A stretch of 64,000 nt of DNA from Candidatus Brocadia sp. WS118 (GCA_007618135.1 PHFX01000002.1:62001-126000); one strand, 5' to 3'. Positions 23,980-58,993 are shown, counted from the stretch's first letter. The notes: generated by a model from the sequence alone, not told the origin. A program made the numbers and translations.

Positions 23980-24001
23980 TCGTTGTCATGCGGTAATTAT
24001 T

Positions 24002-24151
24002 GTAACAATTTAGTTTTTTGAAAAATTCCAACAATGGCGATGTCTGCCGCACAGTGTAGGGGCGAAGCATTTACCAGTTTGGGTATGAATGCATATATGC
24101 CAATTATAGCAAATGATTCGCCCCTACTTTTTCAAGAAACTAAATTGTTAC
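24002..24151. mobile_element. 150-bp MITE-like element, copy 1
   Basis: The termini are inverted repeats: GTAACAATTTAGTTTTTTGA at the left and its complement, with one mismatch over 24 bp, at the right end. Inside is a second inverted repeat GTAGGGGCGAAGCATTT / AAATGATTCGCCCCTAC. It contains no gene. A second copy lies at 58751-58899. Flanks here share only a short T/A-rich run, so a target duplication is not clear for this copy. Confidence 0.85.
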
Positions 24152-24223
24152 TATTTTTAAGAACGAAGAGGTTTCCAAAAATTAAGAACGTGGCTCAGCA
24201 TTTCTCAAGTTCCCGGTTACCGT

Positions 24224-26910: not shown

Positions 26911-27070
26911 CAACTGATTTATCATTTTTAACAAACGAAAAAATCAAGGCCTGAAGGACAGGTTTGAATTCCTGGTAAAAGACACCTCATTCTCACACCG
27001 AGATAAAAGAACAATTCGAACAGTCTGTCACGGAAGAAGTAGAAAAACAGGATGGCAGATAGTGTTGGAA
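26907..27070 (+). pseudogene. Fossil N-terminus of a PLD-helicase gene
   Basis: Translating with frame changes gives MTTDLSFLTNEK, then NQGLKDRFEFLVKDTSF, then SHTEIKEQFEQSVTEEVEK. These line up with MNSDLTFITNEE, RNLIERFRVLIQDTRFF and SHAEVKAQFEQSVAEEVEE of the intact helicase at 28023. About 65 residues between DTSF and SHTE are deleted and at least two frameshifts are present. It overlaps the PIN toxin stop by 4 nt, as a real downstream gene would. Confidence 0.82.
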
Positions 27071-28022: not shown

Positions 28023-31000
28023 ATGAATTCAGACCTGACCTTCATTACCAACGAAGAAAACAGAAATCTTATAGAAAGATTCAGGGTACTTATTCAAGAC
28101 ACCCGATTTTTCGATGTGCTCGTTGGTTATTTCTATACCAGCGGGTTTCATGCCATTTACAAATCCCTTGAAAATACCGAAAAAATAAGGATTTTAGTTG
28201 GAATAAGCACAAACAAACAGGCAATAGAACTCATTCAAAAGGCAAAAACTAATCACCAATCAACACTTCCGTATTCCCACGCCGAGGTAAAAGCACAATT
28301 TGAACAGTCTGTTGCTGAAGAAGTAGAAGAATCGGAGGATAGGCCCGAAGTTGAAGGAGGCATCCTTAAGTTTATTGAATGGCTGAAAAACAGAAAACTA
28401 GAAGTCAGGGCTTATCCAACCGAAAATATTCACGCAAAGCTTTACATTATGACCTTTGTTGCAGGTGACAGGGATGTCGGAAGGGTCATTACCGGATCAA
28501 GCAACTTCACTCAATCGGGTCTCATCGATAACTTTGAGTTTAATGTTGAGTTAAAAAACAGGGCTGATTATGAGTTTGCATTGCAAAAATTCAATGAACT
28601 GTGGAAAGACGCAGTTGATGTACGAGAAAAGTACATTGATACCATTCAGATAAGAACATGGCTGAATAATACTATTACTCCGTATGAATTGTATCTAAAA
28701 TTTTTATATGAGTATTTCAAGGATGAACTCCGTCAAACCGACGAAGTGTTTTTGAAATATCTTCCCGAAAAATTTAAAAAACTGGAATATCAGGAGCAGG
28801 CAGTCTTAAACGCACGAAAAATACTTCTTGAATACGGCGGAGTCTTTATCTCTGATGTTGTAGGGTTAGGCAAGACATACATATCGGCAATGCTGGCAGG
28901 TCAGCTTGACGGCAGAACCCTTGTCATTGCCCCACCTGTACTGATTGAAAGATCAAATCCTGGTTCCTGGACTAACGTGTTTTCTGATTTCAGGGTGCCG
29001 GCCGACTTTGAATCACTCGGCAAAATGGACGACCTTATTGACAGAGGGACAGAGAAATACAAGAACATTATCATTGATGAGGCGCACCGTTTTAGAACTG
29101 AAACAACGGTCACTTATGAGAAATTGGCAGAAATCTGCCGTGGCAAAAGGATTGTTCTTGTAACGGCAACTCCCTATAACAATGCGCCAAAAGATATTCT
29201 AAGCCTTCTAAAACTATTTCAGAAGGCCAGAAAAAGCACTATCCCAAACCTGCCGGACCTGGAAGGTTTCTTTCATGGCCTGGATAGAAAGTTGAAAAAA
29301 CTGGACAGGCAGAAAGATTATGCCAAATACATAAACATGGCAAAAGAAAATGCGCGGGAACTTCGTGAAAAGGTCCTTAAATATCTCATGGTGCGCCGCA
29401 CCCGAACAGAGATTGAAAGGTACTTTTCCAACGATATAAAGAGCCAAAACCTCAAATTCCCCAATGTTGAAAAACCAGTCCCTCTCTTTTATGAACTCAA
29501 TGATAGGGAAAATGAAGTATTCAACAAAACCATAGAATTGATAGCAAAGGAATTCAAATACGCCCGTTATATGCCCATGCTTTATTATGAAGGTGAAGTT
29601 GACCAGCTTGAACAGCAGTCACAGAGAAACATGGCTAAGTTTATGAAAATCCTGCTGGTGAAGCGTCTCGAAAGCAGTTTCTTTGCATTTAAAAATTCGG
29701 TGGATAGATTTCTGCGCTCATACAAGATGTTTATAAAAGAGCTTGATAACGGAAATGTTTATGTAAGTAAAAAACACTCCAATAAAATATTTGAACTGCT
29801 CGAGAGCGATGACGACGAAGCCGTCCAGCGACTGATAGACGAAGGCAAGGCGGAAAGATACGCAAGTAATGAATTTAGAGAAGGCTTCAGAGATGACTTA
29901 CAGCACGACCATGACATCCTCCTTGAGATAAAAAAACTATGGCATTACGTTAACCGCGACCCGAAGCTTTTAAAGTTTTTAGGGGAATTATCAAAAAATC
30001 CGGTTTTACAAGAGAATCATCTGATTATCTTTACAGAATCGAAAGAAACCGCAAACTATCTGTTCAAAAATATAAACCAACAATATCTAGATAAGGTGCT
30101 GTGTTTTACTGGTGATTCAGGTGAGGCAACGCGTGACAAGGTCATTGAGAATTTTGACGCCAGGGCGCGTCACCCTAAAGAAGATTACCGGATACTGATC
30201 TCTACGGAAGTACTGGCTGAAGGCGTTAACCTGCACCGCTCAAATACGGTGATAAATTATGATATCCCCTGGAATCCTACCCGCATGATGCAGCGGGTAG
30301 GACGTGTCAACCGTGTAGACACAGCATTTGACACGATTCATACCTTTAATTTTTTCCCGACCAAACAATCAAATGACCAGATAAAACTGAAAGAAGCAGC
30401 AGAAGCGAAAATCAATGCCTTTTTAACCCTGCTCGGTGGGGACGCAGAACTTTTGACTGAAGGTGAACCCATCGGTTCGCATGAACTCTTTAATCGGCTG
30501 ATTTCCAAACAAACACTGGAAGGCGAGGAAGAATCTGGGGAGAGTGAATTGAAATACCTCCAGGTTATAAAAGGGATTCGCGATAAAGACCCCAACCTTT
30601 TTGAAAGGATAAAACACCTCCCCAAAAAGGCGCGCACCACCAAGGTAACTCAAGTTTCCAGCTTGAGATCGATTAATAAAAATCACAAGCAGGATGCTTG
30701 TGATACCTTGATTACCTATTTCAGACGGGGGAAATTGCAGAAATTTTTTAAAGCAGAATACAATAGTGTGGCTGAAGAATTGGATTTTTTGACTGCGGCA
30801 AAACTACTGGAGAGTAATCCTGATGAAACGAAGGAAAAACTACCAGAACAATTTTATGAGTTGCTGGATAAGAACAAAGAGGCATTTATCTTAGCGACCA
30901 CGGAAGAAATGCCGCATCACGGGCAAAGGAGCGGGCGTGACAGTGCTGCAAATATCCTGAGAATATTAAAGGCAACCCTGAAGAACACCCAAAAACTGAC

Positions 31001-31256
31001 AGAAGACCAGGAACGATACCTGAAAAAAGTCCTTGCTCAGCTTGAGGAAGGCGGACTGCCCAAACAGACGGCAACCCATGCACTGAAAGCGCTCAATGCG
31101 CTTAAGAATGAAATCATTAACCCGCTCAAGGTGCTGGCAATGCTTCAGACCCACATTCCGGCGAGACTATTGGAAGAACATTATGCTGAACAAAACCCGG
31201 CGGTGGTTGGCAAACGGGAAGTGATACTCTCATTATATTTAATGGCAAAACCCTGA
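28023..31256 (+). CDS. PLD-nuclease/SNF2-type helicase of a restriction-like system
   Basis: 1077 aa. Residues about 1-195 are a phospholipase-D-like nuclease domain with ENIHAKLYIM and GSSNFTQSG (HxK...GSxN). An SF2 motor follows: VVGLGKTYISAML near residue 282, IIIDEAHRFR near 350, LVTATPYNN, then the second lobe with STEVLAEGVNLH and QRVGRVNRV near 757. A QVSSL..HKQDACDT insert at residues 875-895 is a translated palindrome. The gene precedes an adenine methyltransferase, so a DNA-degrading, methylation-guided defence role is likely. Its stop codon lies inside the palindrome AACCCTGACAGGGTT. I could not assign it to DISARM or BREX, since drmA/B and pglZ are absent. Confidence 0.82.
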   Translation: MNSDLTFITNEENRNLIERFRVLIQDTRFFDVLVGYFYTSGFHAIYKSLENTEKIRILVGISTNKQAIELIQKAKTNHQSTLPYSHAEVKAQFEQSVAEEVEESEDRPEVEGGILKFIEWLKNRKLEVRAYPTENIHAKLYIMTFVAGDRDVGRVITGSSNFTQSGLIDNFEFNVELKNRADYEFALQKFNELWKDAVDVREKYIDTIQIRTWLNNTITPYELYLKFLYEYFKDELRQTDEVFLKYLPEKFKKLEYQEQAVLNARKILLEYGGVFISDVVGLGKTYISAMLAGQLDGRTLVIAPPVLIERSNPGSWTNVFSDFRVPADFESLGKMDDLIDRGTEKYKNIIIDEAHRFRTETTVTYEKLAEICRGKRIVLVTATPYNNAPKDILSLLKLFQKARKSTIPNLPDLEGFFHGLDRKLKKLDRQKDYAKYINMAKENARELREKVLKYLMVRRTRTEIERYFSNDIKSQNLKFPNVEKPVPLFYELNDRENEVFNKTIELIAKEFKYARYMPMLYYEGEVDQLEQQSQRNMAKFMKILLVKRLESSFFAFKNSVDRFLRSYKMFIKELDNGNVYVSKKHSNKIFELLESDDDEAVQRLIDEGKAERYASNEFREGFRDDLQHDHDILLEIKKLWHYVNRDPKLLKFLGELSKNPVLQENHLIIFTESKETANYLFKNINQQYLDKVLCFTGDSGEATRDKVIENFDARARHPKEDYRILISTEVLAEGVNLHRSNTVINYDIPWNPTRMMQRVGRVNRVDTAFDTIHTFNFFPTKQSNDQIKLKEAAEAKINAFLTLLGGDAELLTEGEPIGSHELFNRLISKQTLEGEEESGESELKYLQVIKGIRDKDPNLFERIKHLPKKARTTKVTQVSSLRSINKNHKQDACDTLITYFRRGKLQKFFKAEYNSVAEELDFLTAAKLLESNPDETKEKLPEQFYELLDKNKEAFILATTEEMPHHGQRSGRDSAANILRILKATLKNTQKLTEDQERYLKKVLAQLEEGGLPKQTATHALKALNALKNEIINPLKVLAMLQTHIPARLLEEHYAEQNPAVVGKREVILSLYLMAKP
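30645..30706 (+). repeat. Translated REP pair, copy A (in helicase)
   Basis: 62 bp, GTAACTCAAGTTTCC to GCTTGTGATAC. Hairpin one is CTCAAG..CTTGAG and hairpin two is TCACAAGC-AGGAT-GCTTGTGA. It is read as VTQVSSL, RSINKN and HKQDACDT, residues 875-895 of the helicase. Confidence 0.9.
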
Positions 31257-31263
31257 CAGGGTT
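31249..31263. repeat. AACCCTGACAGGGTT palindrome spanning the helicase stop codon
   Basis: A 15-bp palindrome whose central TGA is the helicase stop. The same 15-mer recurs at 32000, just before the methyltransferase. Confidence 0.75.
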
Positions 31264-31608
31264 GGGTTGCCTGGAGGAAGGCAAAAGTATTAAATAACCA
31301 TTATCTAACGAAGAAAAATGATAGCGCAGCAAGGCCGCAACCAAGTCCCCTCTAGCAAGAGGGGATTTAGGGGTGTGTTTAAAAACTTACAAAAAAAGGA
31401 TGTTTTTACACGGGAATACTATACTGCAGCAAAGCCGCACCCAAATCCCTCCTATCAAGGGGGATGAAGGGCATAGGTGTTAAGTTAAACGGTTTTCTGG
31501 TGGCATGGACAAACCCCGTTTGTCCATGTTTGCCCCATGTGACTTACAACAGGATGAAAACAATCGGAAATGTGACGGATAGTTGTCCCCTGTTGGCATC
31601 TTCTTGTT

Positions 31609-31829
31609 GTCCCCCGCTGACGGGGGATCAAGGGGGTGGACTGGCAGAGCCAGGAATTTTGGCAGGCTCATAATCTGAATATCTATAAACATTTTTAAAC
31701 CATGGCGTACTTGCAATGATTGGTGAATCAACTCCAAGGTAATAGTGAAAATTCGTATCCAGAATAAAGGGGTATTTGAAGCGACAAGAGAAGTCCAATC
31801 CACCCCCTATACCCCCGCCAGCGGGGGAC
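31609..31829. mobile_element. 221-bp element with GC-rich terminal inverted repeats
   Basis: The left end GTCCCCCGCTGACGGGGGAT plus AAGGGGGTGGACT is matched in inverse at the right end by AGTCCAATCCACCCCCTAT and CCCCCGCCAGCGGGGGAC. The inner 150 bp has an open minus-strand frame with residues FILDTNFHYYLGVDSPIIAS, which I do not recognise. It could be a MITE or a relic gene fragment between repeats. Confidence 0.5.
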
Positions 31830-31999
31830 ATGGCGGGTGCAGCACGCATAAGGGGTTGCCGGTGATAGTTGTTCCTTGACTTAACACGTATGGTGTGAAG
31901 GGGGTGTAAAAAACTTCCGAAAAAAGAAAGATTTTACACGGCAATACTATAGCGCTGGTTGTGATGACATTTCAGATGATCTAATATTGGAGTAATATT

Positions 32000-32032
32000 A
32001 ACCCTGACAGGGTTTAAAACCCTGTCAGGGTT
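32000..32032. repeat. Near-perfect palindrome just upstream of the methyltransferase start
   Basis: AACCCTGACAGGGTTT, a 2-nt centre, then AACCCTGTCAGGGTT. It ends 9 nt before the ATG at 32042 and takes the place where a Shine-Dalgarno would be expected. In RNA it would form a ~15-bp stem or two small hairpins that could control translation. This is inference. Confidence 0.7.
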
Positions 32033-32041
32033 AAAAATGCT

Positions 32042-35000
32042 ATGGATAAACAACAGGCACGAAACCTTATTGAAGAAACCTTCGAAAAACCTTTTGATAA
32101 GGGCAGGTTTTCTGGTTTTATCAAAAACCTCTTAACCCGTACTGAAGAAGCTTCTTTTACTTATCAGGGGCAATTCATTCCTGAAGCTTACAGACAATAT
32201 ATCAGCACACTTGAAAGAATAGGCAAATTCAATGATGGTGAAAACAGAATTGACATTCTTGTCATTAAACTCCAGAAAGAGACCTCCCTCGAACGCGCCC
32301 GCACTATGCAGCGCAACTTTGTCGCATGGTATCTGAATGGCAGCCGTGGCGGTGAAATGAAGGACGCTGCGCTGGTAGCCTTTGTATCCCCTGATGTGTC
32401 GGACTGGCGTTTTTCATTGGTGAAGATGGACTATAAGTTTGAACAAACTAAAACCGGCAAAACAAAGGTAAAAGAAGAGTTTACGCCTGCACGGCGCTGG
32501 TCATTTCTGGTCGGCGCAAACGAAAACAGCCATACCGCCCAGAGCAGACTGGTGGACATACTCGCAAACGATGAACACAGTCCAACCCTTGCAGAGCTGG
32601 AACAGGCATTTGACATTGAAACCGTTACCAAAGAATTCTTCATCAAATACCGTGAGCTTTTTATCCGCACAAAAGAAGAACTGGACAAGATGGTAACTCA
32701 AGCTTCCAGCTTGAGCTTAATTAATACAAACCACAAGCAGGATGCTTGTGATACAACCTCCAGCCTGCAGAATGAATTTAAATCGAAGGGAGTCGATACC
32801 GTAAACTTTGCCAAAAAACTCTTAGGTCAGATTGTCTTTCTCTATTTTTTACAGAAAAAAGGCTGGTTCGGTGTGGGGCGTGATGCCGAATGGGGCACAG
32901 GCTCCAAACACTTTCTGCGCGAGCTTTTTGGAAAAAAGCACGGCGACTATAAAAATTTCTTCAATGACATTCTGGAACCGCTCTTTTACGAAGCCCTGCG
33001 TATAGACCGCAGCCATGCTGATGACTATTACAGCCGATTTAACTGCAAAATCCCCTTCTTAAACGGTGGTCTCTTTGATCCCATTGGCAGCAATGGCGGA
33101 TACAACTGGGTGCATGCCGATATTTGTCTGCCGGACAGACTCTTCTCTAATAAAAATAGGACAAAAGAAGGCGATGATGGTGATGGCATTTTGGATATTT
33201 TTGACCGCTACAACTTTACTGTCAGGGAAGACGAGCCGCTGGAAAAGGAAGTAGCCATTGACCCTGAACTCCTGGGCAAGGCGTATGAAAAGTTTAATGC
33301 CATCCGTCCTGACAACTTTGAGGAATATAAAAAGGCGTTAAAGAGCGGGAAAAAAGGGGAAGAAAGCAAATTCAACAAGCAATACGGCGTCTATTACACG
33401 CCCCGTGAGATTGTCCACTATATGTGCCAGCAGAGCCTGATCAATTACCTGCACACAGTAATTCAAGCTTCCAGCTTGAGATCAATTAATAAAAATCACA
33501 AGCAGGATGCTTGTGATACCGCTTCCAGCTTAAACTCACTCGAAAACATTTATTATGACATAAACGAAACTGTCGCTATAAGGCGGAGAAATCTCCCCCA
33601 TTGGGATCAAGATGGGAAAGCCTATTTTGTAACTTTTAGATTATACGATTCCATTCCAAAAGAAGCTGCTGAAAATATCAGACAGGAAAGACAACAATGG
33701 TTTGAAAGAAATAAGATTACAGACACCTCTCAGTTAGAAAAACTATCCCGTGAAAACCAAATGGAATATTACCGTCTTTTTTCAAGAAGATACGATGAAC
33801 TTTTGGATAGCGGGCATGGCGCTTGTATATTGGCAGATTCAGAGTGTAAAAAAATTGTCGAGGAGGCATTGAATCATTTCAATAATGAAAGATACTATTT
33901 GGATAATTATGTGGTTATGCCGAACCATGTTCATGCTATTGTTATTCCTAAAAAAGGGTATGATTTGTCAAAGATTTTACATTCGTGGAAATCATTTACT
34001 GCAAATGCAATCAATAAATTATTGCATAGTGAAGGCGAGTTGTGGATGCATGAATCGTTTGATCATATTATACGGAGTCCTGAACAATTAGAAAGAATTA
34101 GAAAATACATAGAAGACAACCCCAAAGTAACTCAGATATTCAAAGTAACTCAAGCTTCCAGCTTGAGAGAGAAAGATCACAAGCAGGATGCTTGTGATAC
34201 TATAAGCAAAGAAGACGTCGAGACCCTGATACACCTTGGCGAGCAGGTTAGCGAAAATGAAGAAATAGCATTGATCAAAAAACAAAAAATCCTGGAGGGC
34301 AAGCAGAAGACTTCGGATTACAAATTAAAACTGCCCGAAAGCATCCGCATGAATGCCGTATTGATCGACCAGAAACTGGCCGACATCACCGTCTGCGACC
34401 CGGCGGTAGGTTCGGGCGCTTTTCCCGTGGGCATGATGAGCGAAATTGTAAAGGCGAGAAGTGTGCTGACGAATTTTATCGTAAATCAAGCTTCTAAAGT
34501 AACTCAAGCTTCCAGCTTGAGCATAATAAAAACAAACCACAAGCAAGATGCTTGTGATACGCCAAGAACAACCTACGACTTCAAACGCCACTGCATTGAA
34601 AAATCCCTTTACGGTGTGGACATTGACCCCGGTGCTGTGGAAATTGCAAAACTCAGACTTTGGCTATCGCTTGTTGTAGATGAAGAAGATATTAAACAGA
34701 TTGAACCTTTGCCGAACCTTGATTATAAAATTGTGTGCGGTAATTCATTATTAGGTTTTCCAAGTGGTGTGTTGAAACATTTAGAAACTGAAAAAGAAAT
34801 CGAGAAGTTGAAAAAATTATATTTTGGAGCATTTGATGTAAAGGAAAAAAGGGAACTAAAAGCCAAGATAGACGAAAACTTCAAGAAATTGGTCAAAGAA
34901 GCACAACAATACTCAGATAAAGTTGGAGATGTTACATTTGACTTTAAAGTCTACTTTTCCGAGGTGTTTCATCATAAAGGTGGGTTTGATGTGGTGATAG

Positions 35001-41551: not shown

Positions 41552-42152
41552 ATGACGACGAAGCATCCACATCTTATTGTCATTGCCGGGCCAAATGGTG
41601 CGGGAAAATCAACAACCGCCCCTTCTTTGCTAAAGGGGACACTTCATGTAACAGAGTTTGTCAATGCAGGCCTGATTGCTCAAGGACTTTCTGCCTTTAA
41701 ACCAGAAATGACTGCATTTCATGCCGGACGTATTATGTTGGAACGTATACATTATTTAGCAAATAAAGCGCGTTAACTTCCCTTTTGAAACTACATTAGC
41801 CAGCAAGACCTTTGCTCCGTGGATCACTGAATTACGCAAGACTGGCTATCTCTTTCATCTGGTATTCCTCTGGCTGCCAAGTGAAGAATTTGCCGTTAAC
41901 CGGGTGGTTGAGAGGGTTCGTATGGGTGGGCATGATGTACCGGAAGATACCATACGACGTCGTTATCATGCTGGACTTTGGAACTTTTTTAACCTCTATC
42001 GTCCTTTGACAGATTCATGGGTTTTTTGTGACAACTCTGTTGCAAAGCCAACATTAATAGCTTATAGTAATCATGCGCAGAGATTGATCGTACCCGATTC
42101 AATTCTTTGGCATACTATTGTGAAAGAATATGGAAGTAAAAGAGAAACATAA
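41552..42152 (+). pseudogene. Zeta-like P-loop kinase toxin, frameshifted
   Basis: The first frame (41552-41776) gives HLIVIAGPNGAGKSTTAPSL, a Walker A, and ends at HYLANKAR. The natural continuation NFPFETTLASKTFAPWITEL is in another frame from about 41774 and runs to the stop at 42152 (EEFAVNRVVERVRMGGHDVP, then RRYHAGLWNFFNLY). One base change in the GCGCGTTAAC region would rejoin them. Zeta-like kinases phosphorylate UDP-sugars or similar targets. The fossil tail just upstream supplies GGAGGGG before its ATG. Confidence 0.82.
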
Positions 42153-42321
42153 AGACAGTATATCAGAAGCATTTGCAAATCCGGGGAAAATAACCCATGC
42201 ACTGACGCAGGGCGTCCGTGAGGCGTTAGTGAAACACAAACAGGCTGGTAATCCTGTTGTTGTTTGGCATAATGGGAAAATCGTTTGGCTTAAGCCTGAA
42301 GAAATTCCTGTTCACACATAA
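42130..42321 (+). CDS. Small partner protein of the zeta-like kinase (possible antitoxin)
   Basis: 63 aa, MEVKEKHKDSISEAFANPGK at the start and VVVWHNGKIVWLKPEEIP at the end. It overlaps the kinase frame by 23 nt, the usual coupling for a toxin-antitoxin pair. I do not recognise a named family. A second, disrupted copy lies at 43171-43441. Function is inferred only from position. Confidence 0.5.
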   Translation: MEVKEKHKDSISEAFANPGKITHALTQGVREALVKHKQAGNPVVVWHNGKIVWLKPEEIPVHT

Positions 42322-43106: not shown

Positions 43107-43170
43107 GTAATGAATTATTCCTTCATCACCTTGTCAAACAATTGAACCGGATGATATAATAGTAATCAAG

Positions 43171-43441
43171 AGCAGAGACTGGTCGTAACTGATCCAATTA
43201 TCTGGCATAATAATGTGAAAGAATATGGAAGTAAAAGAGAAACGTAAAGACAATATTACAGAAGCATTTGCAAACCCTGAAAGAATAACCCATGCGCTAG
43301 TGCAGGAGAGTTCGTGACGCGTTATTGAAACACAAACAGGCTGGTAATCCTGTTTGTGTTTGGCATAACGGGAAAATTGTCTGGCTTAAACCTGAAGAAT
43401 CCCCGATTCATATAGCTATGGAGTTAACAGGACTACCTTGA
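43171..43441 (+). pseudogene. Decayed duplicate of the zeta-kinase tail and partner gene
   Basis: Highly similar to 42085-42321: GTGAAAGAATATGGAAGTAA and GAAACACAAACAGGCTGGTA occur in both. The copy is broken in the middle (GTGCAGGAGAGTTCGTGACG in place of the intact frame) and its last block again encodes KIVWLKPEE. Confidence 0.8.
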
Positions 43442-58639: not shown

Positions 58640-58750
58640 ATCTTTCTAAACCTATTCCCCAGGAAAATAAAGGACTTTTGTTGTCCCCGTATACTTCCTC
58701 ATACCCCTGAAAGATACAGAAATGTGAGATTTAACATCATTTGAAATTTT

Positions 58751-58899
58751 GTAACAATTTAGTTTTTTGAAAATTTCCAATAATTGCAATATTTGTCGTG
58801 CAGGGTAGGGGCGAAGCATTTGCCCGTTTTGGTATGAATGCGTTCATGACAATTATAGCAAATGCTTCGCCCCTACTTTTTAAAAAACTAAATTGTTAC
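58751..58899. mobile_element. 149-bp MITE-like element, copy 2, with 8-bp target duplication
   Basis: The same ends as copy 1 (GTAACAATTTAGTTTTTTGA and its inverse) and the same inner inverted repeat GTAGGGGCGAAGCATTTGCC / GCAAATGCTTCGCCCCTAC. The 8-mer GAAATTTT lies directly outside both ends (58743-58750 and 58900-58907), as expected of a target-site duplication. It sits 95 bp upstream of cooC. Confidence 0.88.
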
Positions 58900-58993
58900 G
58901 AAATTTTCTTATGCAAATATTTTGTAATCTATGATAAAATTACTAAATTGTAATGATTACATAAATCAACTGAGAGGTAAAGGTGACAATATC

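Follow-up and report, generated by a model that had tools for sequence, protein, structure and literature searches.

A REPIN-RAYT element apparently read in frame within a type IIG restriction-methyltransferase gene of "Candidatus Brocadia", with similar arrangements in other host genes

Repetitive extragenic palindromic (REP) sequences of the classic kind are found chiefly outside genes, and the REP-associated tyrosine transposase (RAYT) has been described as a separate open reading frame (ORF). A GTAG tag is the mark of one REP superfamily and not of all REPINs (REP doublets forming hairpins). The sections of PMC3733652 on intragenic REPs report GTAG/CGTC dimers lying in frame in ORFs of Opitutus terrae, Rickettsia conorii and others, where they encode 20 to 30 residues; the carrier ORFs are often DNA-repair and RNA genes, tRNA synthetases included. 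In the part of PMC6006769 that deals with them, unexpectedly long TnpA-Y1 proteins were dismissed as products of gene fusion or erroneous annotation. Here we describe a locus of "Candidatus Brocadia" sp. WS118, contained in a stretch of 64,000 nucleotides (GCA_007618135.1, PHFX01000002.1:62001-126000; hereafter the window, with positions counted from its first letter), in which five palindromic repeats and a RAYT are found inside two neighboring defense genes, coding for a PLD-nuclease/SNF2 helicase and a type IIG restriction-methyltransferase. We think it probable that the repeats are REPINs, likely mobilized by the RAYT, and that the REPIN-RAYT-REPIN unit inside the type IIG gene exemplifies an arrangement that recurs elsewhere. 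The recurrence of in-frame REPIN-RAYT elements within apparently working genes of Planctomycetota and Verrucomicrobiota is well supported by the genomes compared here.

The five repeats stand where a previous sequence-only reading had placed them, with the same sizes (four of 62 bp and one of 56 bp), the same codon start and the same encoded peptide, V(T/I)Q(A/V)SSL...HKQDACDT. All of them (5/5) begin in phase 0 of the host ORF (Table 1). The repeat gives GTAAC-TCAAGC-TTCCA-GCTTGA from one end and GTATC-ACAAGC-ATCCT-GCTTGT from the other, i.e., two inverted REP hairpins with a short spacer, as in a REPIN. Every copy folds into two hairpins (DNA z-scores of -5.9 to -7.5), and the first hairpin far exceeds what chance would give, dinucleotide shuffles of the window yielding a mean of 0.02 matches. 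Other traits are unusual. The foot is GTAA or GTAT, not GTAG, and in place of many dispersed, mainly extragenic copies, the source genome has five, all intragenic. No further copy was detected in its 5.04 Mb with either half-pattern at up to 3 mismatches and, as already claimed, none lies in the noncoding parts of the window. The window repeats are built like REPINs and presumably work like them, but are atypical in the source genome. It had also been proposed that stops in the other forward frames leave a single tolerated phase. Such stops are present in four copies, while the +2 frame is open across copy 4, the one of 56 bp. The single phase holds for this repeat family, given its stop codons, but it is not a general rule, since a CCCTGACAGGG palindrome of relatives occurs in two phases, encoding TLTGLRTLSG in the helicase and NPDRVPNPVRV in the methyltransferase; a second REPIN family (see below) also uses two.

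The larger point, missed by the sequence-only reading, is the location of the transposase within the ORF of the host enzyme. The RAYT sits between copies 3 and 4, inside METHYLTRANSFERASE and in the same frame as the methyltransferase, with a Y1_Tnp match above the Pfam cutoff that covers residues 601 to 693 of the ORF and with both the HUH motif and the predicted catalytic tyrosine. Host gene 2 thus contains four of the REPINs plus the RAYT, all in frame, and host gene 1 the remaining REPIN. An associated RAYT of cognate type had been suggested earlier; it is indeed in the very same ORF, and the two copies that flank it are presumably its cognate repeats. It does not stand as an independent gene with start and stop codons. 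The RAYT is open only within the 1,359-amino-acid (aa) ORF, no stop codon was found ahead of the resumed host sequence, no ATG is evident near its start, and the nearby in-frame TTG is part of a REPIN. Lacking an obvious start and a stop of its own, the transposase is probably produced only as part of the host protein. Since the inserts are in frame and free of stops, translation of the host gene is expected to run on through the repeats and the transposase, and the natural reading would be a single polypeptide with the order methyltransferase-REPIN-RAYT-REPIN-methyltransferase. With five sequences, AlphaFold modeled the stretch of the methyltransferase that contains the RAYT at a mean pLDDT (predicted local distance difference test) of 39.7, too low to be usable, and PDB homologues of the enzyme align only outside the insert, beyond it.

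Table 1. Features of the REPIN-RAYT locus (window positions) and survey loci with a RAYT in a FabZ-like gene
Feature	Position	Strand	Details or basis
Host gene 1: PLD-nuclease + SNF2 helicase, 1077 aa	28023..31256	+	Pfam PLDc_2, SNF2-rel_dom, Helicase_C; PADLOC HKD+Snf2
REPIN copy 1	30645..30706	+	62 bp, phase 0, in host gene 1
Host gene 2: type IIG restriction-methyltransferase, 1359 aa	32042..36121	+	Pfam Eco57I, TaqI_C, Y1_Tnp; PADLOC REase_MTase_IIG PDLC03596, 1103 bits
REPIN copy 2	32693..32754	+	62 bp, phase 0, in host gene 2
REPIN copy 3	33458..33519	+	62 bp, phase 0, left flank of RAYT
RAYT (Y1 HUH transposase), 203 aa, in methyltransferase frame	33536..34144	+	Y1_Tnp 33.3 bits
HUH motif (HVH) codons of RAYT	33926..33934	+	sequence
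Predicted catalytic Tyr codon (KYIEDNP) of RAYT	34106..34108	+	sequence
Partial REPIN left end GTAACTCAG, right before copy 4	34126..34134	+	sequence
REPIN copy 4	34145..34200	+	56 bp, phase 0, right flank of RAYT, direct repeat of copy 3
Partial REPIN left end GTAAATCAAGCTT, right before copy 5	34482..34494	+	sequence
REPIN copy 5	34499..34560	+	62 bp, phase 0, in host gene 2
FabZ-like + RAYT loci	L122, L153, L155-L157, L162, L169, L175, L179, L181		

Another palindrome, AACCCTGTCAGGGTT, has copies at the end of host gene 1 (31249-31263) and just before host gene 2 (31991-32041), and in relatives it is found within the same two genes, in frame. A segment of 64 nucleotides (nt) at 26989-27052 is 83% identical to 28273-28336, at the start of the PLD-helicase gene, and is perhaps a broken duplicate.

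Comparison with homologues from the family to which the source genome belongs illustrates how variable these sites are. Proteins 92.8 to 96% identical over the first ca. 470 residues lack the RAYT, and their corresponding loops are empty or hold other palindromes, also in frame; taking all relatives together, the loops contain other palindromes, other RAYTs or nothing, and every insert is in frame. At the site of copy 1, ACCCTGACAGGG..CCCTGTCAGGG or a close form is present in six relatives, and there is no palindrome in two (L106 and L111); the one in L107 is a CCCTGACAGGG palindrome. At the site of copy 2, GTAGCGCAGGCTTCCAGCCTGC is found in L107 and L109, another palindrome in L108 and none in L106 and L111; in the window, copy 2 is followed by what appears to be the right arm of the older REP still present in L107 and L109. 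Where the window has the REPIN-RAYT-REPIN of copies 3 and 4, Scalindua rubra (L034/L112) has a lone REPIN, and the loop of copy 5 is occupied in L105 by an entirely different RAYT.

Two other RAYTs are embedded in genes of the source genome, although its estimated contamination of 3.4% bears on both contigs. The first, in a HmaB/DUF1156 methylase gene (contig C249, L104), is accompanied by five REPINs of a second family, with GTAG at the foot. Four of these share the phase and one differs, and all the half-sites of the family in the genome (11/11) lie in this gene or its neighbor. The third RAYT is in a PglX gene (contig C254, L103). These data bear on a passive alternative, by which a donor rich in REPINs supplied the restriction genes with the repeats already in place, the retention of frame is survivorship, and the RAYT, carried along, is now idle. 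The window family is found nowhere else in the source genome and is mostly extragenic in other genomes, and the homologous gene of Scalindua has REPINs in two of the same loops, all of which would fit such hitch-hiking. However, a genome of the same genus has gene parts 94 to 96% identical without these REPINs and with different palindromes in their place, which suggests a local and recent change. Besides, the RAYT retains its catalytic residues, and the second family is likewise limited to its own RAYT-bearing gene and the adjacent one. We regard hitch-hiking as unlikely.

Using the window RAYT as a query, we found matches in 58 of 392 genomes of Planctomycetota and in 98 of 387 of Verrucomicrobiota (the phylum of L013). 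Among the matches listed, about 30 of 107 in Planctomycetota were in open frames of >350 aa and about 54 in Verrucomicrobiota in frames of >450 aa (our own counts). Altogether, 71 RAYTs were flanked on each side by 60 or more residues of open frame, and their hosts formed about 31 gene clusters. Pfam identified host domains in most of the cluster representatives scanned: leucyl-, valyl- and alanyl-tRNA synthetases (LeuRS, ValRS and AlaRS), PriA, HsdR, HypF, MetH, GcpE/IspG, mevalonate-diphosphate decarboxylase, exonuclease VII, CarB, adenosine deaminase, pyridoxal phosphate (PLP) decarboxylase, creatininase, a CCA-adding-type polymerase, PurH, RarA/MgsA, MmeI-type, PglX/Eco57I-type and DUF1156 proteins, a FabZ-like dehydratase, and a glycosyltransferase. 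Frames of 900 to 2,175 aa recur across many genomes. Some hosts are sole copies: the RAYT-bearing AlaRS is the only AlaRS match in G121 and G141, the RAYT-bearing PriA the only PriA match in five genomes, and the RAYT-bearing LeuRS the only strong match to the LeuRS editing domain in four, the weak ones being probably related synthetases. FabZ hosts, on the other hand, coexist with a second FabA/FabZ-type gene. Among the LeuRS matches listed from 194 genomes of Verrucomicrobiota, frames were mostly near 850 to 950 aa, a few being longer, and all were free of stops. One LeuRS (L256) aligns with that of T. thermophilus (1H3N) before and after the RAYT, and no more than residues 365 to 372 (ca. 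8) of the latter chain are missing, which places the insert at one point of the fold. The inserts likely lie in surface loops. When embedded hosts were used as queries to look for broken genes around stand-alone RAYTs, no two-sided case appeared, although this is a weak test. In the FabZ-like dehydratase, the RAYT occupies one identical site in about ten genomes of a single planctomycete family, with different surrounding REPs (Table 1), and in another locus (L192:3643-5556), an N-terminal RAYT reads without a stop into an apparent MoeA-type gene.

The HVH motif and the tyrosine are retained in 70 of the 71 embedded RAYTs. In the 45 codons that precede the LPHW motif, an ATG was present in 20/65 of them, against 25/31 of the stand-alone ones. 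Repeats flanking the RAYT matched each other above the 99% control in inverted orientation in 53/71 cases and in direct orientation in 30/71. In a RAYT tree built by a quick method and with many weak forks, embedded RAYTs are scattered among stand-alone ones, with 13 or more changes between both states, and separate lineages strike the same host family. The identities of host and RAYT showed weak or no correlation within the LeuRS, PriA and Eco57I-type families (small samples). The synonymous divergence (dS) is saturated in most RAYT pairs, but one (L120/L121) has RAYTs with 97.4% nucleotide identity and a dS of 0.08, versus 0.67 for the host segment, with the identity climbing near the insert. 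This pattern fits a recent movement of the insert, via transposition or recombination.

Could the RAYT have been recruited as a HUH-nuclease domain of restriction and bacteriophage exclusion (BREX) enzymes, with the REPINs as its sites? All three embedded RAYTs of the source genome are in defense methyltransferases (type IIG, HmaB and PglX), restriction or BREX genes account for roughly 20 of the 71 hosts, and the RAYT persists at its single FabZ site. However, aminoacyl-tRNA synthetases, FabZ, PriA, CarB and IspG are also among the hosts, the RAYT lineages within one host gene are often unrelated, and the position of the insert varies among orthologues, as between the window and L105. Domestication seems very improbable. 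As classes of element, a self-splicing intron and an intein were both discarded: neither the window region nor any of 12 host loci gave an Rfam intron, and no Hint/intein domain appeared among the Pfam matches of the window proteins and survey representatives. Removal of the insert after transcription or translation would explain how sole copies of essential enzymes can be interrupted and yet retained, but it finds no support in these searches, the frame is kept at both junctions (needless for an intron), and we give it only a slight chance. That the host genes are dead and their open frames accidental, conceivable for restriction genes, which are frequently lost, is hardly credible given the intact methyltransferase motifs DPAVGSGAF and NPPYG in host gene 2 (presumably an active enzyme), the recurrence of the long frames in many genomes, and the hosts that are sole copies of essential genes.

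The interpretation that we favor, REPINs mobilized by a RAYT that is itself part of a host gene, can be put as follows. REPINs would be nonautonomous single-strand transposable elements, with the RAYT as the likely transposase, moving them and occasionally also itself as hairpin single strands. Insertions breaking an important host gene would be lost, and those in frame and in loops would persist, so that the methyltransferase gains extra loops from the repeats and an internal domain from the transposase. Lone REPINs may remain after recombination between the direct-repeat flanks. Several points weigh against this scenario. Searched with a broader pattern of the window REPIN, other genomes gave 88 matches, 85 of which were not deep inside a frame of at least 250 aa, and the confinement of the window family to one locus could reflect transfer of the locus. 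A mostly intergenic distribution with random phase had been named beforehand as the outcome that would count against translated repeats; the first part is what other genomes show, whereas the phase is not random, the remaining three matches (3/3) being in type IIG-type methyltransferase genes and in the phase of the window. Out-of-frame insertions would often be lost or unrecognized, and selection for frame is presumed. Loci with long open frames were fetched preferentially, and 71 is thus a catalogue count and not a rate; most of the genomes surveyed appear to be metagenome assemblies; one host (L254) had no Pfam match at all; and the RAYT-bearing AlaRS is split over two frames in G190 and G307 (also L171 and L291), by sequencing error or decay. 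For the more general proposal, a class of translated transposons, common in Planctomycetota and Verrucomicrobiota, in which REPIN-RAYT-REPIN units sit in frame in loops of host enzymes (even essential ones) and the transposase exists only as an internal host domain, we see the chances as about even.

Elsewhere in the window, two short MITE-like (miniature inverted-repeat transposable element) sequences, 85% alike and with inverted ends of ca. 30 nt (AACAATTTAGTTTTTTGAAAA), are located at 23995-24158 and 58744-58906, and two neighboring direct repeats of ca. 250 nt, 84 to 86% alike and with CAAACAGGCTGGTAATCCTGTTTGTG-like palindromes, at 42064-42314 and 43159-43410.

If the proposal is true, a transposase can do without its own gene and exist inside indispensable enzymes as one of their domains, and imprecise loss of the insert would harm the host. 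It would offer a testable case of mobile DNA adding protein domains and a natural catalogue of insertion-tolerant loops (LeuRS, AlaRS, PriA and restriction enzymes), would mean that such proteins have been concealed by filters for "fusion or annotation error", and is relevant to the question of whether RAYTs still move.

With the proteobacterial REPINs and RAYTs (REPtrons), the locus shares the two inverted short-stem REPs and the Y1 HUH transposase between matching REPs; it differs in that the RAYT and all the repeats are in frame inside host ORFs and in the GTAA/GTAT tag in place of GTAG. The parallel drawn in the sequence-only reading with the Rickettsia palindromic elements is supported, all five repeats being intragenic and in phase: both are palindromes in frame in protein genes and missing from homologues, a likeness rather than a membership, and here the gene also contains a RAYT. 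To our knowledge, no transposase is linked to the Rickettsia elements. Inteins with homing endonucleases are similar in that a mobile nuclease is translated within sole essential enzymes, recurrently at the same sites; in contrast, no splicing domain was found in the window insert, which seems to stay in the protein. The long TnpA-Y1 proteins set aside in the relevant part of PMC6006769 have here recurrent counterparts, often flanked by REPs, within identifiable host enzymes, and apart from those discarded fusions, the sections and terms searched in the open-license literature turned up no account of host enzymes with a translated RAYT inside. The intragenic REPs described in the sections consulted of PMC3733652 are the same kind of in-frame dimers, but no transposase in the frame of the host is described in those sections; in-frame REPs in ORFs were, then, already published, and host-translated RAYTs would be the element added here.

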